Of a stretch of DNA of 64,000 nucleotides, positions 15,803 to 61,938 are shown piece after piece. Made by a program: the position numbers and the translations under genes. How positions within the stretch are numbered: the first letter of the stretch is position 1; the number at the start of each line of letters is the position of its first letter. Below the pieces are notes generated by a model that was given only the letters and a program-made list of their open reading frames with translations, was not told the origin of the DNA and ran no database searches. This stretch comes from Brasilonema angustatum HA4187-MV1 (GTDB lineage Bacteria; Cyanobacteriota; Cyanobacteriia; Cyanobacteriales; Nostocaceae): assembly GCA_019359695.1 (NCBI GenBank), contig JAHHGV010000031.1, positions 1 to 64,000 on the forward strand, read 5' to 3'.

Positions 15803-16153
15803 TTACCCGACTTGTTCGAGATACTGGTTGATGTCTTCTATGACGCGCGTCAGTTCGGCTTCTGTTGTCAAGCGAATAGTCGCATCGCGGACAGTTAGCA
15901 ATACTTTGGCTGCAAACGGAGTAGACCAAATATTGGGATTACAAAAAATTTCTAAAAATACCTCTCCTGTGTAACGATATTCCATTGGACGCTGGGGACT
16001 GGGTTTACCACCAGGGGTGGTTTTAGCAGCAACAGCTTTGAGGCTTTGCATCAACTCATCCAGTGCTGCTTTAAATTCTCGTGCGGCTTGAGGTGAAAAA
16101 CTAAAAGAGACGGAACCTTCTACTAAGTTCAGTGTCAGACGATTTTCGGACAT
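15803..16153 (-). CDS. Conserved hypothetical protein
   Basis: 116 residues, not recognised. It starts [31 protein letters not shown], contains a helical middle, a basic Pro/Gly-rich linker ([10 protein letters not shown]), and a beta-rich C-terminal half ([29 protein letters not shown]) ending in an acidic helix. No membrane segments. The good codon pattern and compact fold-like alternation suggest a real gene. It lies just left of the satellite CRISPR array but has no Cas-like motif. Confidence 0.6.
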
Positions 16154-16244
16154 GAGCTACTGATAAAAACTTCTATAGCAATCGTAAATGATTCGTGAAC
16201 ACTCATTTGGGGAGATCAGGGAGGAGTTCGTGCTTGAACAAACA

Positions 16245-16374
16245 AAGTGAACCTGATACGGATAGCATGCAATTTGATTTTCTGTGCGCCTGCTGTTTTG
16301 GTAAAGTTGAACGTATCGGCGGCGAACAACCTCGCGATGACACGATTTTCTTTGCCGAATGCGCGGATGGGTAG
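16245..16374 (+). pseudogene. 3' fragment of cas2 (duplicated with the CRISPR leader)
   Basis: The frame ending at the TAG 16372-16374 reads PDTDSMQFDFLCACCFGKVE, then RIGGEQPRDDTIFFAECADG. This is the last 40 residues of the intact Cas2 encoded at 52266-52553, with a few changes (SIKFYF to SMQFDF, EPPRDE to EQPRDD). Similarity stops at about 16245, and no start codon or N-terminal half is present. It is a non-functional remnant carried along with the adjacent leader and array. Confidence 0.9.
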
Positions 16375-16585
16375 GTGTAGAAAAAGAGGTTTGAAAAAAA
16401 ATGGCTGGATTGCTTACAGGACAGGAATTTCAGACAAAAATCTTTTACAACCATCCGCGCCCCCTGCCCAGACTGGATTCCAGCCATTTGCTGTCAAGCA
16501 ATTTACTTTTTCTAGTGCTATCATTACATCATCCGCGATTTAGAACCTTGAAAAGTTTATATAGTGCAGCTTTCTAACTGCCGCA
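16375..16585 (+). promoter_or_regulatory. CRISPR leader of array 1 (copy of the array 2 leader)
   Basis: 211 bp between the cas2 remnant stop and the first repeat, exactly the same length as the leader at 52055-52265. The first 48 bases are identical, as is the final TGCCGCA before the repeat; the middle has diverged by substitutions. It contains AATGGCTGG (16400-16408), CCATCCGCGC (16451-16460), CCAGCCATT (16480-16488) and CATCCGCG (16530-16537), all kept in the other leader. It should drive pre-crRNA transcription and guide spacer integration. Confidence 0.85.
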
Positions 16586-17989
16586 GTTGAAATTTCTCTT
16601 ACTCCCTATTAGGGATTGAAACCACAACAACCACATCTCCTTTTGTAGGCATCCAAGTTGAAATTTCTCTTACTCCCTATTAGGGATTGAAACAGGAAAA
16701 GCTTTTGCATATATAGCGACTAATATTGTTGAAATTTCTCTTACTCCCTATTAGGGATTGAAACATGAACCATCGCCATTTCTTGAGGAACATTCCCAGG
16801 TTGAAATTTCTCTTACTCCCTATTAGGGATTGAAACATTCTCTCCCAACCTTGCAAACCACCTATGAGGTTGAAATTTCTCTTACTCCCTATTAGGGATT
16901 GAAACTATAGTCAATCTCTGTATAACTGAATTTTTATCTGTTGAAATTTCTCTTACTCCCTATTAGGGATTGAAACCTGAATTAATAGTTGGTACTTTTA
17001 CTTGCCCAGATCCGTTGAAATTTCTCTTACTCCCTATTAGGGATTGAAACGTTAACAGTAACAGTTGTAGTAGCCCACAAAAATTGTTGAAATTTCTCTT
17101 ACTCCCTATTAGGGATTGAAACCAAAAATAGCAACAGGACAAATTGCGATCGCAGTTGAAATTTCTCTTACTCCCTATTAGGGATTGAAACTAAAGTGTA
17201 TTCTGTCCCATCTGCTAGGTAAGTTGAAATTTCTCTTACTCCCTATTAGGGATTGAAACTCTAGTTCACTGTCATCATCAGTATTGGCTTTGGTCGTTGA
17301 AATTTCTCTTACTCCCTATTAGGGATTGAAACTCCATAATTGCACCTCAAACCAAAGGAATTGAACGTTGAAATTTCTCTTACTCCCTATTAGGGATTGA
17401 AACGTTACAGGAATTGAGCGTTACGACTATCAACAGAAGTTGAAATTTCTCTTACTCCCTATTAGGGATTGAAACGGTTTGCGTTGGGTAATGTCGAAGC
17501 AGATTGTTGGTTGAAATTTCTCTTACTCCCTATTAGGGATTGAAACTTCCAAGTAACTTTAACTATAATCGCATGATTATTTAGGTTGAAATTTCTCTTA
17601 CTCCCTATTAGGGATTGAAACGTCGGCTTTCAGCTTTAAGTCTTGGATACCATAAGGTTGAAATTTCTCTTACTCCCTATTAGGGATTGAAACTTTAATA
17701 TCTTGGTCAACTACAGCGCAAGGGCTGCAAGTGGTTGAAATTTCTCTTACTCCCTATTAGGGATTGAAACGAATGTTTCCTATCAGTCTATTATTGTCAT
17801 TGTTAGTTGAAATTTCTCTTACTCCCTATTAGGGATTGAAACTAATTTGGGATGATGCAGCCATCCAACAAATTAAAGTTGAAATTTCTCTTACTCCCTA
17901 TTAGGGATTGAAACGGAAGAAGAGGTGAACGCTCGTTTTGAACTACGAGTAGGTTGAAATTTCTCTTACTCCCTATTAGGGATTGAACC
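16586..17989 (+). CRISPR. CRISPR array 1, 20 repeats and 19 spacers, remote from cas genes
   Basis: The 37-bp repeat begins GTTGAAATTTCTCTTACTCC and ends CTATTAGGGATTGAAAC, with a small internal palindrome (TCCCTA/TAGGGA). Repeats start at 16586, 16657, 16728, 16800, 16869, 16940, 17014, 17086, 17155, 17223, 17296, 17367, 17439, 17510, 17585, 17657, 17734, 17806, 17878 and 17953. Spacers are about 31-40 nt. The last repeat is degenerate at its end (GATTGAACC), which marks the old, leader-distal side and sets transcription to the plus strand. The repeat is identical to that of array 2, so the I-D Cas6 encoded at 54 kb should process it. Confidence 0.98.
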
Positions 17990-18209: not shown

Positions 18210-19100
18210 ATGACTCAAGATAACCGCGCAAAAGTGCGAAAGGTTTTAATTATTACCTTAGTGCTGAATATCTTTGTCATGGTGTTAAAAGCTGTCGTAG
18301 GAAACTTGACAGGTTCTCTGAGTTTGACTGCTGATGCTTTACATAGTGTGACTGATAGCGCCAACAATATATTAGGATTGATTGCCAGTCGGTTTTCTTC
18401 CCCAAAACCAGATCGGGATCATCCATACGGGCATTTAAAATTTGAAGCAGTAGGGGCGTTGGGAATTTCTGCTTTTTTAGGTATAGCTTGTTTTGAAATT
18501 CTCCAGGGGGCGGTTGAACGAATCATCAATGGTGGTGGTAAGCCCATCACAATATCACCACCAGAGTTAGGGTTATTACTGGTTGTCTTGGGTGTAAATA
18601 TTTTCGTGGCGTTTTACGAACGTCGTATAGGACAACGGGTGAGAAGCCCAATTTTGATTGCTGACGCCAAACACACTATGAGTGACATCTGGGTAACAAT
18701 CTCTGTGATTGCTGGTTTGATTGGTGTGTGGCTAGGTTTTGAGTGGCTAGATTTGGCTTTGGCTTTTCCTGTGGCTTTGTTAGTCTTTTGGAGTGGCTGG
18801 ACTGTTTTAAAAGAAAATTTACCTTGGCTTGTTGATAGGATGGCGATCGCCCCAGAAGTGATTCATGCGATCGCACTTTCTGTTCCTGGAGTCGTTAACT
18901 GTCATGATATTGCTTCTCGTGGTGTGATCGGTCGTCAAGTCTTCATCGAAATGCATTTAATAGTCGATGCACCTGAGGTAGAAACTGCCCACCGTATCAC
19001 CGAGGAAGTTGAAAAGCGACTAGAAGAACGTTTCAGTCCAGTTAGAATTTTGATTCACGTCGAACCACCTGCTTACCAGTCGAACCATGTTTCCTTCTAG
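18210..19100 (+). CDS. Cation diffusion facilitator family transporter
   Basis: 296 residues with about six membrane helices and a cytoplasmic C-terminal domain. Metal-site motifs of CDF proteins are present: SLTADALHSVTDSANN (helix 2) and ADAKHTMSDIW (helix 5), plus DRDHPYGHLKFE after helix 2. The C-terminal ferredoxin-like domain (GVVNCHDIASR, VFIEMHLIVD, RILIHVEP) is typical. These proteins export Zn2+, Fe2+, Co2+ or Mn2+ in exchange for protons; the ion cannot be decided here. The ATG lies soon after the end of array 1 with no cas gene between. It is convergent with guaA. Confidence 0.92.
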   Translation: MTQDNRAKVRKVLIITLVLNIFVMVLKAVVGNLTGSLSLTADALHSVTDSANNILGLIASRFSSPKPDRDHPYGHLKFEAVGALGISAFLGIACFEILQGAVERIINGGGKPITISPPELGLLLVVLGVNIFVAFYERRIGQRVRSPILIADAKHTMSDIWVTISVIAGLIGVWLGFEWLDLALAFPVALLVFWSGWTVLKENLPWLVDRMAIAPEVIHAIALSVPGVVNCHDIASRGVIGRQVFIEMHLIVDAPEVETAHRITEEVEKRLEERFSPVRILIHVEPPAYQSNHVSF

Positions 19101-25597: not shown

Positions 25598-26332
25598 ATG
25601 TTGAACAAAAAAGAAAATTATCCTATGCATGACCGAATAAGATTACATGAGCCACAGGGCGAACATGATGAGCACAGACACGGACACCATCCTCACAGAG
25701 GAGAAGGTGGACGCAGAGGCAGAGGAGGACCTCCCAATCCAGAGGGCGAACATGATGAGCACAGACACGGACACCATCCTCACAGAGGAGAAGGCGGACG
25801 CAGAGGCAGAGGAGGACCTCCCAGAAGAGGAGAGGGCAAAGTCCGGCGTGGTGAGGCGCGTTACCTACTTCTTGACGCACTGCGCGACGAACCCAAACAC
25901 GGGTATGAGATTATCAAAGCGCTGGAAGAGCGATCGTCTGGACAGTACGCCCCTAGCCCTGGCACAGTCTATCCAACCCTGCAATATCTAGAAGATATGG
26001 GGCTGGTGCGTGCCGATCAAGAAGCCGCGCGGCGCGTCTATCATCTAACCGATACTGGTCGAACCGAGTTGGAGGTTCACGCGCAGGAAGTGGAAGCTTT
26101 TTGGGCGCGATTTACTGAACCTAAGACATCTGACGCCATTCGAGCCGAAATCGGTTTTCTGGAGGACGAATTAGAACACTTGATGCGGACAGTATGGGGC
26201 GGCTTACGAAATGCCCTGAACCGAGATGATCAAAAGACAGTCCGTCGTGTCCGCGAAGTGATTGAACACTCCCAAAATGAGGTGCGGCGCATCCTTACAG
26301 AACCCGACAGCTTAAGAGACAATCAGGAATAA
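25598..26332 (+). CDS. PadR-family regulator with duplicated His-rich N-terminus (YqjI/NfeR-like)
   Basis: 244 residues. The N-terminal 75 residues hold two near-identical 29-residue units (GEHDEHRHGHHPHRGEGGRR, then GRGGPP) rich in His, Gly and Arg. A PadR winged-helix domain follows (ARYLLLDALRDEPKHGYEIIKAL, YAPSPGTVYPTLQYLEDMGLV, RRVYHLTDTGR), then a C-terminal dimer helix. E. coli YqjI (NfeR) has the same plan: a His-rich metal-binding extension on a PadR domain, derepressed by nickel. A metal-responsive repressor is therefore a reasonable inference. A second in-frame ATG at 25625 could be the true start. The gene is followed by trmB 62 bp later. Confidence 0.85.
   Translation: MLNKKENYPMHDRIRLHEPQGEHDEHRHGHHPHRGEGGRRGRGGPPNPEGEHDEHRHGHHPHRGEGGRRGRGGPPRRGEGKVRRGEARYLLLDALRDEPKHGYEIIKALEERSSGQYAPSPGTVYPTLQYLEDMGLVRADQEAARRVYHLTDTGRTELEVHAQEVEAFWARFTEPKTSDAIRAEIGFLEDELEHLMRTVWGGLRNALNRDDQKTVRRVREVIEHSQNEVRRILTEPDSLRDNQE
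25656..25824 (+). repeat. Tandem 87-bp in-frame duplication inside the padR gene
   Basis: Units begin AGGGCGAACATGATGAGCAC at 25656 and 25743. They differ at one base in the visible core (AAGGTGG against AAGGCGG). Near identity points to a recent duplication of the metal-binding segment. Confidence 0.85.
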
Positions 26333-27033: not shown

Positions 27034-27730
27034 ACGGGGAGAAGTTCTTGATTTGGTAATACGTCTCACTTAGGGTGCACAGATGGTTTTGACTTGCCCA
27101 CTGATTAACTCGAAATTGCGGTAGTGTGTAGCGCCACCGCAATTTTAGAGTGCTTGGATAAGCCGAACGCTTGACGCTACGCACATCGCCTGAATCAGTG
27201 GTTGCTTTTGACCCAGAATTTGATCATCCCCAATTTGGGTGTAAAGAAATTGTATTTAATTTTCATAGAACCTTGCGGTAGGTGGGAAACTCAGAGTCTT
27301 TAGACCTGAGAGGAAAACGACACGAGCGACTTTAGTCGCCTTGTTCCATTACCGCCTTGGGGTTACTTAAATTGGTGTGCTTTTGTAATACACTTTCAAT
27401 GGGACAGTTACCATTCCAATTTGTTCGCCCTGTACGCATAACGGTTTTGCTCCGTAGAGCCTTCCCTTGCGGGAGTAAAGTTAGCTTCGACAATGTTAAC
27501 GGTCGGTACTTTCTGAAAGACACTGACTTAACCCAATAAATCTGTTTAATCCTTCAGTTCTAGAGCAAGGAACTAGCTTCGCATCCCTTGGTAGGTCTTT
27601 AACTCTTGCCGTTAACGTAGTTCAATTAAAAACTTAGTCTGGTCAACTGTAGTCAAAGTCTTAGGCTAGAAGCCCAGTGTCTTTAGACCTGGGTTGTTGA
27701 CTAATCTTACAATTCCTCCCCAGAGGCTGA
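27034..27730. other. Intergenic region holding an IS200/IS605-derived fragment
   Basis: No intact gene. Its right two thirds (27285-27700) is the IS-derived element described separately. The left part, next to trmB, shows nothing. Confidence 0.55.
27285..27700 (-). mobile_element. Non-autonomous IS200/IS605-type element without transposase gene
   Basis: Both ends carry a hairpin with the same core: CTCAG-a-GTCTTTAGAC-CTGAG at 27290-27310 and CCCAG-t-GTCTTTAGAC-CTGGG at 27673-27693, in the same orientation. IS200/IS605 ends are subterminal hairpins, not inverted repeats. The inner about 360 bp has no tnpA or tnpB frame, but read on the minus strand it resembles the structured region found at tnpB 3' ends (omega RNA) in cyanobacteria as I recall. 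Boundaries are approximate. Confidence 0.5.
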
Positions 27731-49441: not shown

Positions 49442-49725
49442 TCGGGGGAAGGAGAAATTTCAACTTATTTTTACCTTGATCCATCTTGCTTTTACTCTTT
49501 ACTTAAATAATGGCGTTGCTGAATTTGGGAATCAATTATGATAGCACGCTCTTCAATTTCCTGTTAATCCGATAGAAACGTTACATGCAGCGTCTGTCCA
49601 TCAATGTAAATTTTGAAATTCATATCTTGATTCATTCACAGCCAAAAATTAACCCAACATTTTTTGCTGAGGCATTGTTGATATGAATTGTGCTCATCTG
49701 GTGTGCACTAGATCAAAATGCTTTC

Positions 49726-50198: not shown

Positions 50199-52054
50199 GT
50201 ATCAATCCTTAATAGGGAGTAAGAGAAATTTCAACTCTGGATAGAAGTACTTTGAGAAGTCTGCTACAACAACTAGTTTCAATCCCTAATAGGGAGTAAG
50301 AGAAATTTCAACCGTTATGTGTGATACGCATGATTTCAACGTTTCTGTTTCAATCCCTAATAGGGAGTAAGAGAAATTTCAACCTTTTAAGGTATAAAGG
50401 ATTAACCGAGAATGAAAAGTTTCAATCCCTAATAGGGAGTAAGAGAAATTTCAACCTTCATGATGCCTTGCATCACAATAGGAGGAAGGTTTGAAACGTT
50501 TAAATCCCTAATAGGGAGTAAGAGAAATTTCAACAGATAGAATCATCCTTAGTAGTCGTTACCTTTGGGTTGGTTTCAATCCCTAATAGGGAGTAAGAGA
50601 AATTTCAACGTATATTTAAATCTTTATTTCTAATTTCTTCTCTTGTTTCAATCCCTAATAGGGAGTAAGAGAAATTTCAACGTTTATCAGCTGGGTTGAT
50701 GCGTCCACACAATCGTCAGTTTCAATCCCTAATAGGGAGTAAGAGAAATTTCAACAAGAGTTTTGGAAAGGAGCTTACTACAGCCACAAGTTTCAATCCC
50801 TAATAGGGAGTAAGAGAAATTTCAACCCACCCCTCAAACTAACTCGTCTAATCCGTTTCCCGTTTCAATCCCTAATAGGGAGTAAGAGAAATTTCAACAG
50901 ACATGACAACACGTACTCCTCTTCTGCGAAATGTTTCAATCCCTAATAGGGAGTAAGAGAAATTTCAACCGCACGCATCTGGGCGGAGAAATTTAATGTA
51001 TACGTTTCAATCCCTAATAGGGAGTAAGAGAAATTTCAACCCCGTCTGTTGTCAGCTTTTGGATTTTGAGTTTTTGTTTCAATCCCTAATAGGGAGTAAG
51101 AGAAATTTCAACCTTGACGTTCCTTTGGCTATATTGAACATTTGTTGGTTTCAATCCCTAATAGGGAGTAAGAGAAATTTCAACCATCAGCTGACACAGC
51201 AAAGTTCCCCTTCTTCTTTCGTTTCAATCCCTAATAGGGAGTAAGAGAAATTTCAACCTCAACAGGGTCAAGCGTCTCAAGCTGCACTCAATGTTTCAAT
51301 CCCTAATAGGGAGTAAGAGAAATTTCAACTAGTACAGTCAGACGTGCGATCGCTGCTCTAAAAAAAAATGGTTTCAATCCCTAATAGGGAGTAAGAGAAA
51401 TTTCAACTTTCCGGTTCCAGCACGATCGCAGCAAACGCCACGTTTCAATCCCTAATAGGGAGTAAGAGAAATTTCAACCGATATTTTATGGTTGTTGGCG
51501 ATCGCCTTTGATGTTTCAATCCCTAATAGGGAGTAAGAGAAATTTCAACCTATGTTTTTCGTAGCATGGATAGATTCAGTTCTGTTTCAATCCCTAATAG
51601 GGAGTAAGAGAAATTTCAACTTTTGGGGAAGGAGGAAGTATTGGAGAATTTCTTGTTTCAATCCCTAATAGGGAGTAAGAGAAATTTCAACCTTCATATT
51701 CTTTTTTTGGGTTGAACTTTCCACCGTTTCAATCCCTAATAGGGAGTAAGAGAAATTTCAACTATCTTGAAAAATCTTTTCTTCTTCATTCATAGGAAGT
51801 TTCAATCCCTAATAGGGAGTAAGAGAAATTTCAACAGACAGACACACCAGGAGCACAACCAAAACCAGTTGGTTTCAATCCCTAATAGGGAGTAAGAGAA
51901 ATTTCAACCTCAAAAACAATATGACGGGTTTACAGGCGTTTTTGTTTCAATCCCTAATAGGGAGTAAGAGAAATTTCAACCCTAAAGCAATACCTTGATG
52001 ATGAGATAGCCATCTTTGTTTCAATCCCTAATAGGGAGTAAGAGAAATTTCAAC
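50199..52054 (-). CRISPR. CRISPR array 2, 26 repeats and 25 spacers, next to the type I-D cas operon
   Basis: Same 37-bp repeat as array 1 on the minus strand. On the plus strand repeats start at 50199, 50276, 50347, 50419, 50498, 50573, 50645, 50719, 50790, 50862, 50933, 51004, 51076, 51148, 51221, 51293, 51371, 51442, 51513, 51584, 51655, 51726, 51799, 51872, 51944 and 52018. The leader is on the right, so the oldest repeats are on the left: the one at 50199 is degenerate (GTATCAATCCTTAA) and the one at 50498 has a substitution (GTTTAAATCCC). It is directly downstream of cas2. Confidence 0.98.
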
Positions 52055-52265
52055 TGCGGCACTCAGAAAACTGCACCATATAAAGTTTTCAAGGTTCCAA
52101 AGCGCGGATGGTCTGATCATAACATGAGAAAAACTAAATCAATTTACGCCAAATGGCTGAAATCCTGTCTAGGCAAGGAGCGCGGATGGTTATAAATAAA
52201 TTTTCCCCAAAATCCTCGTCCTGTAAGCAATCCAGCCATTTTTTTTCAAACCTCTTTTTCTACAC
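52055..52265 (-). promoter_or_regulatory. CRISPR leader of array 2
   Basis: 211 bp between the cas2 stop and the first repeat, AT-rich, equal in length to the leader at 16375-16585. It contains two copies of the GCGCGGATGG block (52102-52111, 52180-52189) inverse to the one at the cas2 3' end (52270-52279), and an AATGGCTG/CAGCCATT pair. These are shared with the other leader and are likely recognition elements for Cas1-Cas2 or a host factor. Confidence 0.85.
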
Positions 52266-52553
52266 CTACCCATCCGCGCATTCGGCAAAGAAAATCGTCT
52301 CATCACGGGGTGGTTCGCCACCGATACGTTCGACTTTACCAAAACAGCAAGCGCAGAGAAAATAAAACTTGATGCTATCGGTATCAGGTTTGATGAGTTT
52401 GTGTAGGCGCGATCGCAACTTCGCATATTGAGTATCAGTCAGCTGACACTCAAATACACTATACTGCACCCACTGTCCATAAGACTTGAGGACTTTGTGG
52501 ATTTTTGTGCGGCGCTTGTCTTCAGAAATATCGTAAGACACAACAACATTCAT
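52266..52553 (-). CDS. cas2: CRISPR-associated endoribonuclease/integrase subunit Cas2
   Basis: 95 residues. Ferredoxin-like Cas2: MNVVVSYDISEDKRRTKIHKVL with the metal-binding D8, YGQWVQYSVFECQLTDTQYAKL, and the C-terminal strand region IKFYFLCACCFGKVERIGGE. It forms the Cas1-Cas2 spacer integrase. It lies 21 bp after cas1. Its last 40 codons have a degraded copy at 16.2 kb. Confidence 0.96.
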   Translation of the reverse strand: MNVVVSYDISEDKRRTKIHKVLKSYGQWVQYSVFECQLTDTQYAKLRSRLHKLIKPDTDSIKFYFLCACCFGKVERIGGEPPRDETIFFAECADG

Positions 52554-52574: not shown

Positions 52575-53579
52575 TTACTTCAAAACCAAGGGTGGATATT
52601 TCTCGATTTCGCCCATTAAGTATTTAGCTAGTAACCGGGCTTGAAGTTCAAAAGCTTCTTGGTAAGTACATTTGCGTCCTAAAACGGGATGCTTAAATTC
52701 GGATAATTTCTTTTGTCCGTACAGCCGCAGAAATGTTTTTCTTGGTTCGTTGGTGAGGGAAACAGCACCGCTTAAAGGTTCTGTGACAAAATCCTCAACC
52801 TTCAACAATTGCTTATTTAACGTAGACAACACAAGTGCATCTACCACGAGGGGACGGAATTCTTCCATTAAGTCTAATGCTAGTGATGGTCTACCATAGC
52901 GATCGCAATGTAAATATCCCAAATATGGATCAAACCCAACAATATTAACTGCACTTTGGACATCGTGACGCAATAAGGAATAACCAAAGCTGAGTAAGGA
53001 ATTCACTGGATCGGTTGGTGGACGACGAACGCGCTTGGGAAAAGTGAATTGTGTATTGCGAATCATTTCATTAAAGCAGCCAAAGTAAGCAGCGCTACCT
53101 GCACCTTCCAACCCGCGTAAAGAATCAATGTTTTGAGTTGCGTCGATGGGTGCAATGACATGATCTAAATGTTCAATAGCACCGGATAAATCTAGGTCGT
53201 TGGATTCACGTTGACGACGGACAAGAGTGTTACGGTAATTCTTGAGTTTACCACGTACAAAGCCTTGGACGAGATGAATTGCTTGGGGTGTATCACCTGC
53301 GGCTTGCCATTGCGCTTTACGGACAAAAATATTTTTGGTGACTTCTGGTTCTAAACGTCCTAAATAACCACCAGTTCCTGTCAGAAAAGTTAGGGGAATT
53401 TGACGTTCTAATAATTCATTGATAGCAGATGGTGAAATTGTCGCGCGTCCTAAGACTACGACACCATCGATTTTAAGAAGCGGGACATCTAATATTGTCT
53501 TTTTCTCGTATTTGACGTGTAGTCGTTCATCAATTCTGCCGATAAAAGCATCGTCTTGTGTAACGTAAAGTGTGCTCAT
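52575..53579 (-). CDS. cas1: CRISPR-associated integrase Cas1 (type I-D)
   Basis: 334 residues from the ATG at 53577-53579 (MSTLYVTQDDAFIGRIDERL); the upstream 25-codon extension overlaps a palindrome and is not Cas1-like. Catalytic residues appear in LRGLEGAGSAAYFGCF (Glu), YLGYLHCDRYGRPSLALDLMEEFRPL (His and Glu/Asp). It catalyses spacer integration at the leader-repeat junction with Cas2. Full length. Confidence 0.97.
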   Translation of the reverse strand: MSTLYVTQDDAFIGRIDERLHVKYEKKTILDVPLLKIDGVVVLGRATISPSAINELLERQIPLTFLTGTGGYLGRLEPEVTKNIFVRKAQWQAAGDTPQAIHLVQGFVRGKLKNYRNTLVRRQRESNDLDLSGAIEHLDHVIAPIDATQNIDSLRGLEGAGSAAYFGCFNEMIRNTQFTFPKRVRRPPTDPVNSLLSFGYSLLRHDVQSAVNIVGFDPYLGYLHCDRYGRPSLALDLMEEFRPLVVDALVLSTLNKQLLKVEDFVTEPLSGAVSLTNEPRKTFLRLYGQKKLSEFKHPVLGRKCTYQEAFELQARLLAKYLMGEIEKYPPLVLK

Positions 53580-53612
53580 AGTTAGTGTTAAGATTTGAGT
53601 TGAAATGTCGTC

Positions 53613-53636
53613 CGCCTCGGAATTAATTCCGAGGCG
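53613..53636. other. Perfect 24-nt palindrome between cas4 and cas1
   Basis: CGCCTCGGAATT followed by AATTCCGAGGCG with no spacer, in the 106-bp gap that separates cas4 from cas1 in the operon. As RNA it would form an 8-10 bp hairpin. It has no U tract, so it is more likely an attenuator, a processing or stability element, or a binding site than a full terminator. Confidence 0.55.
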
Positions 53637-53685
53637 ATCAATTACGAGGCTCATTAAAAGTGATGCAAAATATCAAAGTTCTCGT

Positions 53686-54279
53686 TTAGTAAACTTCTTG
53701 ATACCGTCCGACTTTATCCACAATTTCTGGCAAGCACCGTGTGTACAAACTGCATCCTGTACAGCGCTTTGTCTTAATAGCTTTTGGCATAATACCTGTC
53801 AAGAAAAGCATCTGAACAGCTTCAATTGTGGCGACTGTGCTTTGACGCAATTCTTCCGTAATTTCTACGACTTGACGTTGATGTGAGTGTGCGTAATAAA
53901 CATAAGCAGTCGTCACTATTTGTCCTGTGATTTCTTCTAGACATAAAGCTTGGGCACAAACTTGCAACTCATCGTTATCCCATTCACCCTTACGTCCTCG
54001 CTTGTATTCAACTGGATACAACTCACCGTTTTCTGATTCAATTAAATCAGATTTACCAATAAGTTTGTATTTATCTGATTTGAGCCAAATCGCTCGAACT
54101 TGCCAGGTTTCATCACGATGTCCTTCCCCTAATGTGTGGACGCGTTCGTGTAAACTTGTCCCTTCAATTGTGTATTGGTTATCAAGAAATTCTCCTGCAC
54201 AAAACATCCGCCAGCAGCGATGTGGGCAATAGGCATATTGATTTAAGGAAGCAATTGGAATATATTCTGTATCATTCAT
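53686..54279 (-). CDS. cas4: CRISPR-associated exonuclease Cas4
   Basis: 197 residues from the ATG at 54277-54279, which overlaps the cas6 stop by 8 bp (ATGAATGA). RecB-type nuclease: iron-sulfur cysteines in YAYCPHRCWR and CTGCSLYTRC, nuclease motifs GKSDLIESENGELYPVEYKRG (Asp, Glu, Lys). Cas4 trims prespacers and selects PAM for Cas1-Cas2. In I-D systems it normally sits directly before cas1. Confidence 0.95.
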   Translation of the reverse strand: MNDTEYIPIASLNQYAYCPHRCWRMFCAGEFLDNQYTIEGTSLHERVHTLGEGHRDETWQVRAIWLKSDKYKLIGKSDLIESENGELYPVEYKRGRKGEWDNDELQVCAQALCLEEITGQIVTTAYVYYAHSHQRQVVEITEELRQSTVATIEAVQMLFLTGIMPKAIKTKRCTGCSLYTRCLPEIVDKVGRYQEVY

Positions 54280-55153
54280 AATTTTCAACACTTGATGAGA
54301 GGCGACGTGTCATACCCATGCCCATTGTTGTTTTACGTCCAACTCCTGCATACAAAGCAAAGTCGGCAAGGGCATTTATTTGTTTGATTGCAATTAGTTC
54401 AACATCTCCTAAAATTCGATAGCTGATTTCGCCGACACAACCAATAAATTTGGTGTCATAGTTACGAATAACTTCCGTATGGATGTTGACAAAACTTGGA
54501 TAAATTGACTCGATTGGGACGTTGGTAAATTCAATCCCACTATATTTGTTCCAGCGACTGAGAAGACTGTTGAAGACACATTCTCGATTTGGCAGAATGG
54601 TATCGTATCCTCCTTGGCGGAAAGCTACGGGTGTGGCGAGGGTGAAGTTGAGAGGGTGATTTGGGCGATCGCTTCGCTGCTGCGCTCCGCGCAGATCGCT
54701 TGCTTGGTCGTACAATTGTGTATAGGTACAAGCATTTGCCCAAGGTTGTGTTGATTGGGGTGTACCAAAGATGCTAGTAATATACAAGTCTGCTGAACCC
54801 AAATGCCAAGGATGATTGGGGTTAAGATTTAGCCACAGTGGAGTCAGCTTGCTAAAGAGTGTGTCGTCTAATAGCGAGATGCGCCACCAACAGGGTGTAC
54901 CTGGGGGAATTGGGCGTTGATGGGAAAATTGCAAGCTGTGGTTTTTCTGTTGATGGGTTTTATGATTGCGTTGTATTTGTAAGGGGGAAAGGGTGAAGGG
55001 TTTCTCTGCGTTGGATGCGTGTAAATAGTCTGCTAAATCTTTATCGACTGAACTTATCAGGGTGAGGAATAGGGCGTGGTAGTGTCTACCTGTGAGGAAT
55101 TCGGGGTAGATGGGAGATTGGGGGATGAGGTTGAGGACGAGACTGTGGGGCAT
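54272..55153 (-). CDS. cas6: CRISPR pre-crRNA endoribonuclease Cas6
   Basis: 293 residues. RAMP protein with the C-terminal glycine-rich loop YAGVGRKTTMGMGM. The N-terminal region starts HSLVLNLIPQSPIYPEFLTGRHYHALFLTLI, and His residues there may be catalytic. It cuts pre-crRNA inside the repeat, leaving the 8-nt ATTGAAAC handle expected from this repeat. It lies 12 bp after cas3 and overlaps cas4. Confidence 0.93.
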   Translation of the reverse strand: MPHSLVLNLIPQSPIYPEFLTGRHYHALFLTLISSVDKDLADYLHASNAEKPFTLSPLQIQRNHKTHQQKNHSLQFSHQRPIPPGTPCWWRISLLDDTLFSKLTPLWLNLNPNHPWHLGSADLYITSIFGTPQSTQPWANACTYTQLYDQASDLRGAQQRSDRPNHPLNFTLATPVAFRQGGYDTILPNRECVFNSLLSRWNKYSGIEFTNVPIESIYPSFVNIHTEVIRNYDTKFIGCVGEISYRILGDVELIAIKQINALADFALYAGVGRKTTMGMGMTRRLSSSVENYE

Positions 55154-55165
55154 AATTGAGAGTTA

Positions 55166-57451
55166 TTAAACTATAAAGGGTTCATCATCTGGAAGACGCA
55201 ATTGTTTACCCTTAATTGTCATGGTTAAAATTCCTGCAATCCCAGGTAAAAATCTGTATTCTTTTTGAGCATTGCTACATTGAATGACAATTGGATATGA
55301 AACAATTCCTTCTCTTCGCATTTGGAAGATAATATACTGATTCTCTTTTTCAGCTATAATCATCCCTGGTATGAGATGTTTTTCTAGTAGTTGAATCAAG
55401 GGCGTGGGTCGTATTGCTCCTCCTACTCCTAAACGTCGTTCAATACGGCAATTTTTGAAAGCAGTCAATTTATTGAGTTCTGTATTAACAAATTCTTGCC
55501 AAGTGTCAGGATAACTCAGACGAAAAACCAGTTCATAATTTTCCTTTGCCCGACTAGTGACTTCTATAAGTTCCCCATTTGGAACAAATTCGTAGTGACG
55601 TAAAAGATGGATGGGATCGAGGCGTGTTTCTTCTGATTCATCTAAGAGATAACCATGAGGATCACGAATTGGGAGACTTTCAAATAAAGTATTTCTAAAA
55701 GAGAATAATGGCGCATAGCTGGTCATGAAAACAAGAGCAAATTCTTGTAAATATTTTGCCGCTTCTTCATCTTTTTTGAACAATTCTTCATAGTCCTCTA
55801 AACTCACACGTCCGGCTTGTAAGTCATCCCAATCTTCAGGGTATTTAGCTTTAATGTAAGTTTTCACAAAAGCTTGACCACCAGGAGTAAATTTCCATTT
55901 ATTTTGAACATCTTTGAGTGAGGCTTGACTAATGTTCTCAGCACCTCGTAAAACTTTCATTCTAAAGCGACAGTCATCCCAAGTACGGTTTCCTCCTAAA
56001 ATTGATTTTATTGTTTCAAAAAGCTGTGGTACTAATTCTGCACCTGCTATATTTTGAAAGACTTCTTCTAGTTCTAACAATGGACGAGCAATTTCTAAAA
56101 ACGCTTCAGAACGCCAATATGCAAGTAAGAATGGTTTCTCTAAACAAGGAAGATTTTTCAATATTTGCTCAAGTGCTATACGTCCTCCAGATATATCGAG
56201 AGAGGCTAAACCTTGTTCCCAAGCTATTGCTGGTAAATAAGCTATGGCTTCTGAGTCAATGTGAGTCTCAAATTTACCCAAAACACGTCCGACTCTACCA
56301 ATTCTTTGCCAAAATGCAGCACGATTATGGGCTGAAAAAATTAACCAGTCTAAATTTTGTCGTTTTGGTGTAGGATTTCTTTCAAAGTTAAATCCTACAT
56401 CTACAGTGCTAGTAGCCAAAATTATTTGACACTGCATTGCCCGTTGTCTATCTTTAAAAGGTGCAGGACCAGTCATGCGTCCGATATAATCAGTCAGTCC
56501 TTGCTGATTTAACAATTCTTTGAGACGATTAATACTATCTAGAGAATCCAGAATAACTGCACCGTTTTCCTTAGGTCTTTCGCGAAAACGTTGGACAACT
56601 TCAAACGCTAACTCTGCTAGCCACTCTTCCCTAGTATCAGGTTGTGGTCTTAATTCTAGATTGACTGTTGTTTGCGATGGTAAAAGTTTACCATTACCAG
56701 TCTCTCCATCTATTCTGGCGATTTTTACACCCTGCTTTTCTAAACTTTGCAATGCTAATTCACAAGCCTGTTCTGGTGTAGCTGTGAGTAAAACAACCCG
56801 TCTTCCATGCTTAAAAAAGCCAAAAAGATGGGAATAAGCGAGATAGAACAGCAACCCTACCAACTGCTTAGCATCATAAAGATGAAACTCATCAAAAATG
56901 ACTGTCCCAAACTTGGTGTAAAAACTACTAGCAATATTGCTTCTATCTAACTTGTTGTAGGCGAAGAAAGTAGCGTAGTAAAAAATATCAGGATTTGTCA
57001 CCAAAATAATTGGTTTATTTGCTCCTACTTCTGGAAAAATAGTTGCAGGATTTCGCAAGACGTTATACAGTTTTTCTCCTCGTCGCTTACCCACTTTATC
57101 ATCAGACCAACTTTGAATTTCTCTGGCTGAAGCAGATTTGACTACATGAGGTAAACCAGCTTCTTTTACAAACTTCTCTGCGGCTTCACGTTGCTGTTCT
57201 ACCAAAGCATTAGTTGGGGCAATGTAAACAGCACTTTTGGTAGGTTGGTGCAATAAAACTGTGAATCCCGCTTTTGTTTTACCTGTCCCTGTCGGTGCTA
57301 AGTCAAGGATAATATCAACATCGCGAGATTTTTCAAAAACCTCAACTTGATGTTGAAGTGCATTATTCATGAATGAAAGCTCATCGGGTAATGATGCACA
57401 AGCAAAAATACTACGAGGTTCAAGTTTAGTAACTAATCTTTGATTAACCAT
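55166..57451 (-). CDS. cas3: CRISPR-associated helicase Cas3 (Cas3' type, no HD domain)
   Basis: 761 residues from the ATG at 57449-57451, which overlaps the csc1 stop by 8 bp; a start 14 codons earlier is possible but would overlap by 50 bp. SF2 helicase motifs: LAPTGTGKTKAGF (Walker A), VIFDEFHLYD (DEFH box), LLTATPEQ (motif III), and QRIGRVGRV (motif VI). There is no N-terminal HD nuclease; in type I-D that domain is on Cas10d. The gene stands between csc1 and cas6, whereas in the Synechocystis I-D locus it comes first. Confidence 0.92.
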   Translation of the reverse strand: MVNQRLVTKLEPRSIFACASLPDELSFMNNALQHQVEVFEKSRDVDIILDLAPTGTGKTKAGFTVLLHQPTKSAVYIAPTNALVEQQREAAEKFVKEAGLPHVVKSASAREIQSWSDDKVGKRRGEKLYNVLRNPATIFPEVGANKPIILVTNPDIFYYATFFAYNKLDRSNIASSFYTKFGTVIFDEFHLYDAKQLVGLLFYLAYSHLFGFFKHGRRVVLLTATPEQACELALQSLEKQGVKIARIDGETGNGKLLPSQTTVNLELRPQPDTREEWLAELAFEVVQRFRERPKENGAVILDSLDSINRLKELLNQQGLTDYIGRMTGPAPFKDRQRAMQCQIILATSTVDVGFNFERNPTPKRQNLDWLIFSAHNRAAFWQRIGRVGRVLGKFETHIDSEAIAYLPAIAWEQGLASLDISGGRIALEQILKNLPCLEKPFLLAYWRSEAFLEIARPLLELEEVFQNIAGAELVPQLFETIKSILGGNRTWDDCRFRMKVLRGAENISQASLKDVQNKWKFTPGGQAFVKTYIKAKYPEDWDDLQAGRVSLEDYEELFKKDEEAAKYLQEFALVFMTSYAPLFSFRNTLFESLPIRDPHGYLLDESEETRLDPIHLLRHYEFVPNGELIEVTSRAKENYELVFRLSYPDTWQEFVNTELNKLTAFKNCRIERRLGVGGAIRPTPLIQLLEKHLIPGMIIAEKENQYIIFQMRREGIVSYPIVIQCSNAQKEYRFLPGIAGILTMTIKGKQLRLPDDEPFIV

Positions 57452-58211
57452 TGATTCTGCTTCCGCCACAAAATTGTAAATCTGCTGGTACAACTATTTC
57501 ACCAACTTGCCAAGCAGCACCCCGGAAATGAAGATTTTTAAGTATTGGTGCTGGAGGCATAGAAATTAAATCAAAAGACAAGATTTCAGTCTGTGGTGGT
57601 AAATCAGCAACGTTCAAGTAAGCCTTTGTTTGGTAATTTCCTTCTGGTAATGGAATGACATCAAATGTCTCTAGAATATTCACTTTAATTTTGCTTAAAA
57701 ATTTACCAACACGAATGTAGTCAGGTAATTGATAATTACCAAAAACGACAGTTTGGAATTTATTCCCACGTTCAATCATTCGGAACCGTCCTGTTTGAGG
57801 AAAATTACTTGCTCTAAATGAATTTGGTTTTTTACCTGTTCTCCTGAAAAATGGTAAATCTTCACGTGCTGTAGCGACTCTGTTATTAGTCATCGCATAC
57901 CAATAAGCATCAGAAAGAGCATTAAAACGTTCAAACCGGAAAGTCACTCGACCATGAGTAGGTGAGGCGGGTAATATGTAGAATGTTTGTGCGATCGCTT
58001 CAAAATCTTCTTTGTAGGTAGGTCGTCCTGTAGCCTGTCCTTGGAGACGATAAGCGGAATTAACCAAACCCAAAGCATAGGTTAGAGCATAATTCCCAAT
58101 TGTCCCCTCAGTGTAGTAGGTATCCGACAACTCCCTAGAGGCAAAAAAGACTGGTTCTAAACACACTAACTCCACAAACTTTGCCTGTTGAAAAGGAATT
58201 ATTGACATCAT
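57444..58211 (-). CDS. csc1: Type I-D Cascade subunit Csc1 (Cas5d-like)
   Basis: 255 residues (254 from the second Met). Recognised by FVELVCLEPVFFASRELSDTYYTEGTIGNYALTYALGLVN at the N terminus, typical of Csc1/Cas5 of type I-D. It caps the 5' handle of crRNA in the I-D effector. The ATGATG start follows immediately after the csc2 stop, and the stop overlaps the cas3 start, so translation is coupled on both sides. Confidence 0.93.
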   Translation of the reverse strand: MMSIIPFQQAKFVELVCLEPVFFASRELSDTYYTEGTIGNYALTYALGLVNSAYRLQGQATGRPTYKEDFEAIAQTFYILPASPTHGRVTFRFERFNALSDAYWYAMTNNRVATAREDLPFFRRTGKKPNSFRASNFPQTGRFRMIERGNKFQTVVFGNYQLPDYIRVGKFLSKIKVNILETFDVIPLPEGNYQTKAYLNVADLPPQTEILSFDLISMPPAPILKNLHFRGAAWQVGEIVVPADLQFCGGSRING

Positions 58212-59228
58212 CTAACTCTCTGCTTCAACTGTTGCTTTCTTACCTTTGCTTTTGCTTTTTTTAGACTCAGCAGGAACTTGACGGAAAGGTTCGTAAGATT
58301 GACTTAACCGCTTTAAGAAATTATCTCGTTCCGCTTCTGACCAATGATTATCAACATCAGTCATTACACTTGCTAATTCTTCATCAGAGAAATGCATAGA
58401 AACGCCTCGCTTATTCTTCCAAGTTGAAAGCATTTCTTTAGCTTTTTCTATCAGGCGCTTAGTATTCATGGGATGTTCTAAAGGTTTATCCAAACCATCA
58501 TAAACAGCTTGGACAAGTTGCAAAGAACTGGGAAGTTCAGCAATACTACCAAAGATGCCCAATATTGCATTTTCCATACGTCCAACACGACTGGAAACAG
58601 CACCATAGCGACTGGTGTAAAGAATATTGCCAATGATATAGCGTAACTCATCAGCAGTGACATCTTTGAGGGTTACGACATCAAGAAAATGAACTCCGGG
58701 TTTAATATATTCACTGGTATTTAGTGCGGTTGAAGCATTACCATTTTGGTCACGCATTGTGCCATTTTCATAGATAGCATTAATCGTTCTTTCTCCTAAA
58801 ACTTCAGTCGCAGGTAAAACACTAAAAGCATCTTCAGTCCAAATCCTACTTTTCTGTGCGCCTCCGCCACCAGCAGCAAAACCGTAGAGAAAACAGTCCA
58901 CACACATCTCGCAAGGAGAGTTTGTGTTCAAAGAACAAAGAGAACCATCTTTACTGTTATACAACAGTTCATGCGCTCTTAAATGTTCTCGTCCATAACG
59001 TCTTTCTGGTGCTACTTGTTTGCGTTTAGTCATAACTAAACGTTGGATAATAGTCTCATCGTTGATACCTGCTTGTACAAATTCGCTACATATAGGTTCA
59101 CCAGAACCTTCTGTACGAAAAATAGTTTCAGATTGAGTTTTTCTGAGAACAACGAAAGTGATAAACCGTCCTTTGGGAAAGTTTTCGTAGGTTTGAGCAA
59201 GAACTGAAGAAAGTTTTTTAATTGACAT
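58212..59228 (-). CDS. csc2: Type I-D Cascade backbone subunit Csc2 (Cas7d)
   Basis: 338 residues. RAMP-fold backbone protein that binds crRNA in multiple copies. Signatures: FITFVVLRKTQSETIFRTEG, RRYGREHLRAHELLY, a cysteine cluster CSLNTNSPCEMCVDCFLYGFAAGGGGAQ and TSRYGAVSSRVGRMENAILG. The lysine-rich C-terminal tail (SKKSKSKGKKATVEAES) is low-complexity. It has a strong AGGAGG ribosome site, suiting high expression of a multi-copy subunit. Confidence 0.94.
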   Translation of the reverse strand: MSIKKLSSVLAQTYENFPKGRFITFVVLRKTQSETIFRTEGSGEPICSEFVQAGINDETIIQRLVMTKRKQVAPERRYGREHLRAHELLYNSKDGSLCSLNTNSPCEMCVDCFLYGFAAGGGGAQKSRIWTEDAFSVLPATEVLGERTINAIYENGTMRDQNGNASTALNTSEYIKPGVHFLDVVTLKDVTADELRYIIGNILYTSRYGAVSSRVGRMENAILGIFGSIAELPSSLQLVQAVYDGLDKPLEHPMNTKRLIEKAKEMLSTWKNKRGVSMHFSDEELASVMTDVDNHWSEAERDNFLKRLSQSYEPFRQVPAESKKSKSKGKKATVEAES

Positions 59229-59241
59229 GATAACCTCCTAA

Positions 59242-61923
59242 TTAAATAGATGTAGTAACTTCAACCGAATTTTCTTCTAGTTTGCCTTTAAGCTGCTGTC
59301 GTGCTTCTTCAAGGAAGAATAGATAAGCAGCTTCCAATGTTTTTTGATCAGCTAATAACTTTTCAGGACGAGCTTGATAAACATCCTCATATAGTTTTCG
59401 TAAAATTTCGTAATATCGTGTAATTTGCTCATACTTTGTTTGACCAACGCCATGTTCTCGGATGCGATCTAAGCGAGTATGATATTGCTGAATTAAAGCA
59501 GCAAAAACAACATCTAAACCTAAATGAGGTTTTTGAGAGCGAATAGCTGCAAGAAAAGCTGTAAAAGGTTCAGCTTGTGCAGTTCTCTTAAAAGAACTTC
59601 CCCATATTTTCCCTTCAGCTGCGACTTGTGCCGCCTCTTTAAGATATTGAGTTAAGAGTGAGTTATCATTAGGCATAAGACTCTCCAGTAAAGTATTTAA
59701 TGGCTGACAAATTCGACTCCAAATGACACTGAAATTTGGTTCATCTTGTTCTCGCAAGAACCAACGTAGTAAGACATAGTAAAGTTCAAGTGGTCTTGCA
59801 CAAGCACGGGCTAAATCATATAGACAATCATCTACTTTCTGAATACTGGCGACGGATGTTGCAAGTTTTCCGAGACAACGCAAACGCTCAAGAATTTTTT
59901 CTGAATCTTCGCGTTTATATTGACCATTACCTAATAAAGGTTGTAATGAAGCAGGAATACCTTCTACTCGCCCGTAAATATCGTTAGATAACTCTACTTC
60001 CAGATTTTCACTTATAGTAAAAGGAAATCCAAACTCTAAAGATAAGGAAAGTTCCAAAGCTAGACGTAGTGATTTTAGTAAAGCTAAAGAAGCATTTGCA
60101 TCTCCCCAAACAAGAGGAATAATGAGCGTTGTATGAACAAAATCACGACGTTTTGGAAAAGCAAATCCTACAACTTTGTTAGGTTTAAAGTCTAGAGAAT
60201 TTTCTCGATACAGTTGTAATTCATCAACTGTAACCGTACCACCTTCAGCATTAGTAGCAGCAAGTCTTTCTAAGTATTCTCGCCACAGTCTTAACAGTTC
60301 AGAATTTGAACCTTTAGGTAATGCAAAGTGTAGATACAGTGGATCTTGTTTTTTAACAGCAGGAAAATTAGCTCCAACCGTCATCAATTGATATGCTAAA
60401 GCTGCAATTGAATCTGCTTGTCTTTTTGGTTCGGCGCTGATTCCACCTGGTAAGCGGTTAGAAAAAGCCTGTACTTTTGTACCAGGAGGCATAGTGTCAG
60501 AAATGAGTTCCTCAATCTCATTGGAAGTAGAACCAAGAGAACACCTTTGTTTAGGATTAGCTTCTATATAAGCATCTAATTCTTTTAGCCCATTCAACTT
60601 AGATGGAATAGGTAAATTTAACATTCGATTGATGACAGCAATCATTTCTTCTGATGCTTCTGTTGCTTGTGTACTTTCCATTCTTAATTGGAAAGATTCT
60701 CGCAACGCCTCTTTAATGCCTTCGATACCTTTCACTGCTGCCTTTGCTGCAAACAAAGGTCGTCCATATTGTCCGTCAAATGCTTCTAATACTGTACGTT
60801 GCTGTTCAGAAATTCCGACATGATGAGCAATTTTCTCCCAAACGTCTTTGGGGTTGAAGCCTACTTGTCGATAGCTGAGATATGCAGCCTTTAACCCTTC
60901 AGAAACTGCAAATTCTTCTGCATTGCTTACAGGTAGTAATTCCAAATTGACTGCATTCTTTACAGCCTCAGTACCAGCAGCATTGCTCCACTTTAATATA
61001 TCTTTTGCAACTTTGTCTGATTTGTAACCCGCTTTTTTCTTTTCTAATAGTGCTTCTACATTTACCAACACCTCTTCAAGATTTTGTTGAATCGCTTGGT
61101 GAGCAATCTTAATTCCATCTTTAGTAAGTCTGACAAGTCGTTCAATATTATTTCCAAATACTTCGTCAATCTTTCTTTGCAAAACATTAGCTATTTCTGT
61201 CACTAAATCTGCCTTTGGTATCGCTTCTCCCTCAAAAAGTTCGCCATCAGGAAAAATCGCTAAAGGTGTCAAGCCGTACCTTGTCAAAACTTCTTCACAA
61301 GCCCCCAGCAAAAGTGCAGTGATATAACCTCTATCCTCAGATAAGCGCACTCTGAAAAGATTGCTAGAACGGTTGAATGCAACTGTCAATTCGTTTTCAA
61401 CTTTGCGAAAACGCTCTGCATCGGGAATTCCTAAATCAAATAAGTCAGCAGCGGTTATCATCGCCGCCCACCGTTCAATAGTAGGATCTTCCGGTAAAAA
61501 TCTCGCGCCATCGGTGTTATGATGCCCAGAGTGGCGTTCAATAAGCCGTCTGGCTAACTCAAAATCTTCTTCACTTGAAACAAAACTCACTACACCTGCA
61601 AGTTCAAACTGTTCTCGTAAAAAGTTCTTATCTCTAGCTAAGGTTTTCACCTTACGTTCTAACGAGTCTAATTTATTTAAGTCGTGAACCGCAGTTGCTG
61701 CTAATAACACAGGTCGTTTATCTTCAGGGACTCCAGCTATCCGACTAACTGTCAACATGAACTGACACGCAGAGTCCAAGTGTTCTGCAAGAGTTGTTCC
61801 CTTCCTCACCCCATATTGATGATGAGTCCCCAAGCGTTCGTAGAATAGGGGGCGAATTTCACTAAAATAACGTTCCTCCAAAGTTTTCGGAGGACGATTC
61901 AAAAGCCGGGTGCGCTTCGACAT
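59242..61923 (-). CDS. cas10d: Type I-D large subunit Cas10d/Csc3 with HD nuclease domain
   Basis: 893 residues from the ATG at 61921-61923; a TTG five codons earlier is possible. The N-terminal HD domain is visible as AEHLDSACQFMLTVSRI and LLAATAVHDLNKLD (H80-D81), then LIERHSGHHNTDGARF. The rest corresponds to the Cas10-like palm and helical parts. No GGDD cyclase motif is seen, as expected for Cas10d. In I-D the HD domain supplies the DNA cleavage that Cas3 gives in other type I systems. First gene of the cas operon. Confidence 0.95.
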   Translation of the reverse strand: MSKRTRLLNRPPKTLEERYFSEIRPLFYERLGTHHQYGVRKGTTLAEHLDSACQFMLTVSRIAGVPEDKRPVLLAATAVHDLNKLDSLERKVKTLARDKNFLREQFELAGVVSFVSSEEDFELARRLIERHSGHHNTDGARFLPEDPTIERWAAMITAADLFDLGIPDAERFRKVENELTVAFNRSSNLFRVRLSEDRGYITALLLGACEEVLTRYGLTPLAIFPDGELFEGEAIPKADLVTEIANVLQRKIDEVFGNNIERLVRLTKDGIKIAHQAIQQNLEEVLVNVEALLEKKKAGYKSDKVAKDILKWSNAAGTEAVKNAVNLELLPVSNAEEFAVSEGLKAAYLSYRQVGFNPKDVWEKIAHHVGISEQQRTVLEAFDGQYGRPLFAAKAAVKGIEGIKEALRESFQLRMESTQATEASEEMIAVINRMLNLPIPSKLNGLKELDAYIEANPKQRCSLGSTSNEIEELISDTMPPGTKVQAFSNRLPGGISAEPKRQADSIAALAYQLMTVGANFPAVKKQDPLYLHFALPKGSNSELLRLWREYLERLAATNAEGGTVTVDELQLYRENSLDFKPNKVVGFAFPKRRDFVHTTLIIPLVWGDANASLALLKSLRLALELSLSLEFGFPFTISENLEVELSNDIYGRVEGIPASLQPLLGNGQYKREDSEKILERLRCLGKLATSVASIQKVDDCLYDLARACARPLELYYVLLRWFLREQDEPNFSVIWSRICQPLNTLLESLMPNDNSLLTQYLKEAAQVAAEGKIWGSSFKRTAQAEPFTAFLAAIRSQKPHLGLDVVFAALIQQYHTRLDRIREHGVGQTKYEQITRYYEILRKLYEDVYQARPEKLLADQKTLEAAYLFFLEEARQQLKGKLEENSVEVTTSI

Positions 61924-61938
61924 ATACAAATACTTCAA

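Follow-up and report, generated by a model that had tools for sequence, protein, structure and literature searches.

A type I-D satellite CRISPR array copied together with the end of cas2, and a candidate outer anchor of its leader that overlaps the last cas2 codons

Filamentous cyanobacteria reportedly carry many more CRISPR arrays than cas1 genes, as a 2019 survey is said to have found. The window analysed here (G000:C92:1–64000; 64,000 nt of an 8.5-Mb assembly of 98 contigs) contains a CRISPR array at 16 kb that is preceded by the 3′ part of cas2 and a leader, and it raises the questions of where such an array came from and why the end of cas2 stands before it. The array is a type I-D satellite that was copied together with the cas2 end, and a short element overlapping this end (M1) likely anchors the outer side of a rigid leader, probably for Cas1-Cas2(-Cas4).

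The cas genes of the window are at 52–62 kb (Table 1), where cas2 shares an operon with Cas1, Cas4, Cas6, Cas3′, Cas5d/Csc1, Csc2 and Cas10d. The combination of Cas10d, Csc1/Cas5d, Csc2/Cas7d, Cas3′ and Cas6 with Cas4-Cas1-Cas2 identifies the operon as type I-D; assignments are from Pfam, with PADLOC used for Cas10d and Cas5d, and the Cas3′ call is based on helicase domains and place in the operon. The 16-kb array has the same repeat, a homologous leader and no cas genes alongside: none of the eight neighbouring ORFs tested between 7.7 and 20.8 kb matches a PADLOC Cas model, and they include a type II methyltransferase and an ORF that resembles QueC weakly (E 5e-4). An eroded lone CRISPR repeat (49416–49465) lies ~0.75 kb past the distal end of the cas-adjacent array. 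Elsewhere the window contains a HEARO RNA (27475–27701, leftwards) and a group I intron (2937–3204, rightwards), both exceeding the Rfam gathering score, and two 85-nt copies within one ORF (25652–25823; 98% identical, starts 87 nt apart).

Table 1. Positions of the satellite array, its leader elements and flanking genes, and of the cas locus, in the 64,000-nt window.
Feature	Coordinates	Strand	Description	Basis or remark
Left flanking gene	15803..16153	-	116 aa, no Pfam match	Divergent neighbour of the efflux gene where relatives have no array
Copied cas2 3′ part	16226..16360	+	From about codon 48, non-coding	tblastn; start approximate, by eye from orthologous satellites
M1	16361..16377	+	GCGCGGATGGGTAGGTG; former last cas2 codons + TAG + GTG	Near-invariant in satellites; fixed distance to repeat
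M2	16451..16460	-	Inverted copy of M1 core; CCATCCGCGC on + strand	
-10-like box	16516..16525	+	Extended, TGCTATCATT; probable pre-crRNA promoter	Coordinates by eye; promoter role predicted
M3	16529..16537	-	Second inverted core copy; TCATCCGCG on + strand	
M4	16543..16554	+	GAACCTTGAAAA; repeat-proximal conserved box	Coordinates by eye
Satellite CRISPR array	16586..17989	+	20 repeats of 37 bp, 19 spacers	Final repeat with one mismatch
Right flanking gene	18210..19100	+	Cation efflux transporter	Pfam; adjacency in relatives
Cas-adjacent CRISPR array	50200..52054	-	26 repeats, 25 spacers	
Leader of cas-adjacent array	52055..52265	-	211 bp	M2 at 52180-52189, M3 at 52103-52111
M1 at cas locus	52263..52279	-		Overlaps cas2 3′ end and stop codon
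Intact cas2	52266..52553	-	95 aa	Pfam PF09827, E 3.3e-28 (protein scanned minus last codon and stop)
Type I-D operon	52575..61938	-	cas1, cas4, cas6, cas3′, cas5d/csc1, csc2, cas10d	Pfam and PADLOC

The two leaders lie within an ungapped inverted repeat (16228–16622 and 52018–52412; 395 nt, 85% complementary) with arms separated by 35.4 kb, and a local alignment of 16249/16250–16622 with the reverse strand of 52390–52018 spans the cas2 tail, the 211-bp leader and the first 37-bp repeat. The sequence-only reading of this locus had described just such an arrangement upstream of the satellite, mirrored at the cas locus, and the alignment bears it out, including the 211 bp from TAG to first repeat in both leaders. 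The match has an abrupt left end, as that reading had proposed, although protein-level similarity to Cas2 begins at 16228 (tblastn; residues 48–95 of 95, 79% identity) rather than at about 16245, giving a tail of 48 codons and not 40; one indel pair separates it from the intact cas2. The identical bases at the start of the two leaders number 49 by recount instead of 48. The 19 spacers claimed for the satellite were found, and none is shared with the cas-adjacent array by a 16-mer criterion.

The 3′-most part of the copied cas2 segment behaves differently from the rest. A 25-row alignment suggests that M1 is kept even where the remainder of cas2 is gone. When 59 genomes were searched with a leader query lacking M1 (which missed one known satellite in the genus-mate G005), 39 places in 16 genomes were recovered; M1 is present at 38 of these with 0–3 mismatches (29 exact), 260–262 nt from the repeat end, and at the 39th as an exact 15-mer at the expected position. 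M1 was taken as the best match lying no more than 30 nt from where it was expected, which favours it slightly. Twelve places are at an intact or shifted-stop cas2 and 27 are without intact cas2, with a Cas2 alignment of at most 49 codons (undetectable at E 0.01 in 16). M1 in these 27 satellites has seven mismatches in 459 positions, as against 283 in an equal window 60 nt upstream and 86–184 in leader windows 18–72 nt downstream, where orthologous and related satellites are counted singly, such that the counts overstate independent events. Of 217 family members with genomes examined, 103 contain the exact 15-mer M1 core, and the reversed pattern is absent from the tabulated rows. These comparisons demonstrate constraint on M1 at the level of sequence, and the tail upstream of it would be hitch-hiking debris. 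A copy without the cas2 end would lack part of the leader, since the outermost conserved site covers the last cas2 codons and the stop. The description of the cas2 tail as a fossil therefore holds for ~16226–16360, but not for the last 11 coding bases and stop, which are part of a 17–18-nt leader element kept by non-coding satellites.

The position of M1 relative to the cas2 stop codon is variable. With Cas2 protein similarity as the sole criterion, 80 loci were collected. M1 is present with up to three mismatches in 71 (exact in 23); five of the other nine have a version at the same position with four or five mismatches, and the last four lack anything similar. M1 starts before the first base of the stop codon by 11 nt in 26 of the 71 loci and by 7 nt in one, and after it in 44, by 20 nt in 23, 4 nt in 15, 7 nt in three, and 1, 12 and 74 nt in one locus each. 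Loci with the stop upstream of M1 often have TGG in place of the old TAG. The distance from M1 to the repeat end is 259–263 nt in 40 of these loci and 283–286 nt in 25, the other six comprising two without a measured repeat and distances of 171, 251, 254 and 359 nt. Because the stop can precede or follow M1 with little change in the M1–repeat distance, M1 is independent of coding and its overlap with cas2 is the state of some lineages.

A total of 130 distinct M1 sites were collected, one a truncated duplicate; 10 of the remaining 129 are without a detectable array and two without a readable repeat end. In the other 117 arrays the M1 15-mer lies 259–262 nt (96 arrays; class A) or 281–284 nt (15 arrays; class B) from the end of the first repeat, with six at other distances (112, 172, 264, 269, 344 and 435 nt). 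Among 97 class A leaders (including the 264-nt row), M4 is found in all, 79–84 nt from the repeat end (80 nt in 88); M2 is found in 82, invariably 88–90 nt from the M1 15-mer; and the -10-like box is found in 83, 153–155 nt from the M1 15-mer (each with up to two mismatches). M2 is present in 14 of the 15 class B leaders, 88–89 nt from the M1 15-mer in 13 and 109 nt in one, and all 14 class B leaders with M4 have it 80 nt from the repeat end. As the M1–M2 and M4–repeat distances are near constant, the M2–M3 interval accounts for the extra ~22 nt of class B in 13 of the 14 leaders where M2 is clear; this length is close to two DNA turns, so that the sites would still face the same way. The start of the leader in this family is not the cas2 stop: the outermost conserved site, M1, is at a fixed distance from the first repeat, as are its inverted copies M2 and M3.

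The inverted copies tend to change with M1. In leader L271, M1 is GCGCCAGGGG and M2 is its exact reverse complement, and in L249, M1 is GCGCGAGGGG, again with M2 as the exact reverse complement; M3 follows in both. L236 counts against covariation, having a changed M1 with the usual M2 and M3. Agreement of M1 and M2 over six positions averages 5.375 in 152 class A leaders against 5.139 when shuffled (sd 0.033; reached in 0 of 2000 shuffles) and, more weakly, 2.02 against 1.83 in 42 class B leaders (reached in 11 of 2000), in many of which M2 is anchored one base off; these statistics ignore kinship and include many rows collected by their M1. The genomes of L236, L246, L249, L256 and L271 (L305–L319) have several coexisting M1 versions, often matching their own M2 or M3. 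Since M1 versions differ among the leaders of one genome, a single protein of one fixed specificity is not a simple explanation.

Leader motifs are known from related systems. In the type I-D leader of Synechocystis, motifs I–III raise spacer uptake (Kieper et al. 2019, as summarised in the review PMC10212523); one motif is likened to an integrase anchoring site with a host bending factor suspected, and the text available from that review names three leader motifs and no bound partner. The window leader resembles it in general layout, with 211 bp (within a range of 202–220 bp), a promoter-like box and conserved boxes at fixed places. By eye, no M1-like site is seen at the cas2 end of Synechocystis pSYSA, unlike here, where the outer site overlaps or abuts cas2. 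The pSYSA leader shares GAACCTTGAAAA with M4 (also by eye), but at a different distance from the repeat, and the two boxes are not equated. In type I-F systems, Cas1-2/3 folds the leader together with IHF, and Cas2 contacts inverted leader motifs, according to the accessible text of PMC12259127. The inverted motifs at constrained spacing are what such a folded leader would have, although the subtype, integrase and sequences differ. No leader site inside cas2 turned up in the CRISPR literature searched, much of it available as partial text, which does not establish absence from print; three M1 stretches gave only one 13-mer match in full-text literature, in a shrimp feed paper.

By analogy with Cas2 on the inverted motifs of type I-F and with the uptake-raising I-D motifs, M1, M2 and M3 are most likely docking sites at which the leader would fold onto Cas1-Cas2(-Cas4), perhaps aided by a DNA-bending protein of the host. 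New spacers would enter the first repeat of any array with this leader, one cas operon serving in trans, and a working copy would have had to carry the cas2 end, with M1 as the outer leader anchor.

The main alternative, which we regard as unlikely, is that the same sites are operators for a regulator of array transcription, such as a WYL/WCX-type protein encoded beside cas10d. A gene at 62203–63063, divergent from the I-D operon, matches WCX (WYL-type) weakly, with E 1.9e-4 and 22.1 bits where the cutoff is 23.9, a WYL gene likewise borders the I-D operon of Synechocystis pSYSA, and M3 is located just downstream of the -10-like box. However, M1 is about 150 nt upstream of that box, exact CCATCCGCG occurs in the window in the two leaders only, and the stretch from the regulator gene to the cas operon has none even when one mismatch is allowed. 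Spacing alone cannot choose between operators and docking sites, because the distances are equally rigid to the -10-like box and to the repeat.

With perfect complementarity over 10 bp, M1 and M2 might form the arms of an RNA stem or of cruciform DNA, for example a processing or termination structure that ends the cas2 message. The exact compensatory changes of L249 and L271 are those expected of a stem, as is agreement within a leader but not across the leaders of one genome, and the RNA folding z-scores of four leaders of the window genome are -3.2, -2.4, -1.5 and -2.2. This role is nonetheless quite improbable: satellites have no cas2 message, the promoter-like box is downstream of both arms, M3 lies outside the stem but changes along with M1 and M2 in L249 and L271, and the GTAGGTG half of M1 is nearly as conserved although it has no partner in M2.

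Identity of M1 could also reflect nothing but recent copying or homogenising gene conversion, and conversion has probably affected this locus. Orthologous satellites are present in the genus-mates G005 and G006. The far part of the cas2 tail of the window satellite is nearest these orthologs (0.86 and 0.81, against 0.75 for its own cas2), and the near block (-65 to -16) is nearest the cas2 of G006 (47/49, 0.96) and G005 (46/49, 0.94). Just past M1, the satellite matches its own cas-adjacent leader at 50 of 53 positions and each orthologous satellite at 41 of 53. Since the orthologous satellites differ there, later gene conversion between the satellite and the cas-adjacent leader is probable, although the blocks compared are short; a leader tree with many weak branches, which groups the window satellite with satellites at a phycobilisome site (90/85) and apart from its positional orthologs, is taken only as support for this. 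The identical first 48–49 leader bases thus reflect constraint on M1 and, probably, later conversion. As a full account of M1, such a pure fossil is very improbable and is disfavoured: in the same alignments the rest of the leader differs far more than M1, M1 is still kept by the 16 of 27 satellites gathered without it that have no detectable cas2 tail, and it persists when the cas2 stop shifts.

The site of insertion can be recognised in relatives. The left flanking gene is matched in 55 of 59 genomes, and in 15 of 30 fetched loci the efflux gene is divergent and adjacent to it, with gaps of about 140–830 bp. M1 core and satellite repeat are absent from all 15 of these loci, of which one belongs to the same genus (G001) and two to other families (G051 and G054), and they leave no room for a cas operon. 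The remaining 15 loci consist of three satellite carriers (the window genome, G005 and G006) and 12 without an efflux gene in the fetched flank, among them those of the same-genus G003 and G004. The order of left gene, satellite and efflux gene in G006 is as in the window, and the G005 contig ends inside the array. Operon loss occurs in general, but that the array is the remnant of a second complete cas operon is hardly credible and was set aside, given the array-free adjacent flanks in 15 of 30 relatives, two of other families, and the cas2 pieces truncated at different lengths in satellites of the window genome.

A segment with the last 48 cas2 codons, the leader and at least one repeat was, as these comparisons demonstrate, inserted between two divergent genes before at least three genomes of this genus split, since the satellite occupies the same site between old neighbour genes in all three; it then gained its own spacers. 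This is the origin that the sequence-only reading had proposed, and the alignment, the orthologs and the array-free site in relatives support it, as they do its view that the copying is not recent; no second full cas operon was found at the 16-kb site in the relatives examined. Two further parts of that reading require revision. The copying need not have occurred between the two loci of the window, because G005 and G006 share the satellite, and it was not a one-off event, as three satellites on contigs C92 and C85 have different cas2 breakpoints and more occur in relatives.

The window genome has two further copies of cas2 tail, leader and array, one at G000:C85:98.6 kb and the other at G000:C92:111.8 kb; contig C30 has a fifth M1 site. 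Satellites follow what we take to be rnb in five of the genus's seven genomes and what is presumably a phycobilisome-linker gene in three, and nearby second satellite copies occur in G005 and G023. Their cas2 tails start at differing points, the shortest consisting of 31–43 aligned nt, so copying with a breakpoint inside cas2 appears to have happened repeatedly, unless shorter tails eroded. In G003 (L047) and G004 (L059), the gene next after the rnb-site satellite is the efflux gene that in the window stands to the right of the 16-kb array; this gene is interrupted in G003, and only its 3′ part is matched in G004. Satellite arrays may be points of flank exchange. On contig C85 (L013) the satellite directly follows the phycobilisome-linker gene, in surroundings that we take, from the look of the proteins, to be a phycoerythrin operon. 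An eight-repeat array of the same repeat family is located near a contig end (L015; G000:C47:1–760), where the leader search matched repeats only.

Spacers were compared among 14 arrays (five from the window genome, those of C30 not included, and nine from relatives, several of which are truncated where a contig or the fetched stretch ends), with a common 16-mer as the criterion. The only overlap, of 22 nt, is between two different spacers, spacer 10 in the 16-kb array and spacer 9 in the 111-kb one; both arrays apparently took a spacer from a single invader, in favour of independent uptake. No match was found for the 19 spacers of the 16-kb array in PLSDB plasmids, or for the 24-nt core of spacer 10, the one core searched, in viral contigs. 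The window leader itself matches six plasmid records, with 60–80% identity at the best places; two matches are on cas2 over nearly the whole query, and two cover 105–129 nt only, one of these on cas2. Those on Nostoc PCC 7524 and HK-01 plasmids have no annotated feature in the PLSDB feature table, which is incomplete.

Contig C30 (L224; G000:C30:13000–28000) is plasmid- or prophage-like and encodes a telomere resolvase (Pfam ResT-TelK_cat, E 6.8e-29), an actin-like partition protein and a terminase small subunit-like protein. It has a perfect 1465-bp gapless inverted palindrome, the pattern of a read-through hairpin telomere or an assembly artefact; in the linear element of Anabaena variabilis, terminal hairpins are reported absent in the text available of PMC4148955. 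The two CRISPR arrays of C30 differ in repeat type, and one has an M1 leader that abuts the other; none of six proteins scanned on the contig is a Cas protein. Nothing outside M1 seems to be needed there, since M1 directly abuts a degenerate repeat of the other array.

Arrays far from a Cas locus with the same repeat have been described, with duplication listed as one origin in the accessible part of PMC12814883. The window satellite is like these in having the repeat and leader of the cas-adjacent array with different spacers; its origin, unlike theirs as described there, is bounded by a cas2 breakpoint and an array-free site. The DR5 (I-D-like) array of Nostoc phage N-1, described in PMC4916379 as a cas-less array in a Nostoc genetic element, is similarly cas-less and of I-D-like type, but none of 50,697 phage records matches the window leader at E 1e-5.

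A more general picture can be put forward tentatively, as falling a little short of an even chance. The Nostocales I-D leader would be a rigid three-site platform whose outer anchor overlaps or abuts cas2, with an M2–M3 linker of two lengths about two helical turns apart. The integrase gene would share bases with the site that its product reads, with a stop codon that slides; the smallest working satellite would run from M1 to the first repeat, and it is in this form that satellites would spread, both within genomes and to a plasmid-like element.

Annotation that takes the cas2 stop as the leader boundary would yield truncated leaders in part of this family. The birth of an array can be read here from its breakpoint, array-free site, orthologs and probable later gene conversion, and it also suggests the required content of a new array. 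The fixed geometry and covarying sites predict where a type I-D integrase or bending protein would touch the leader.
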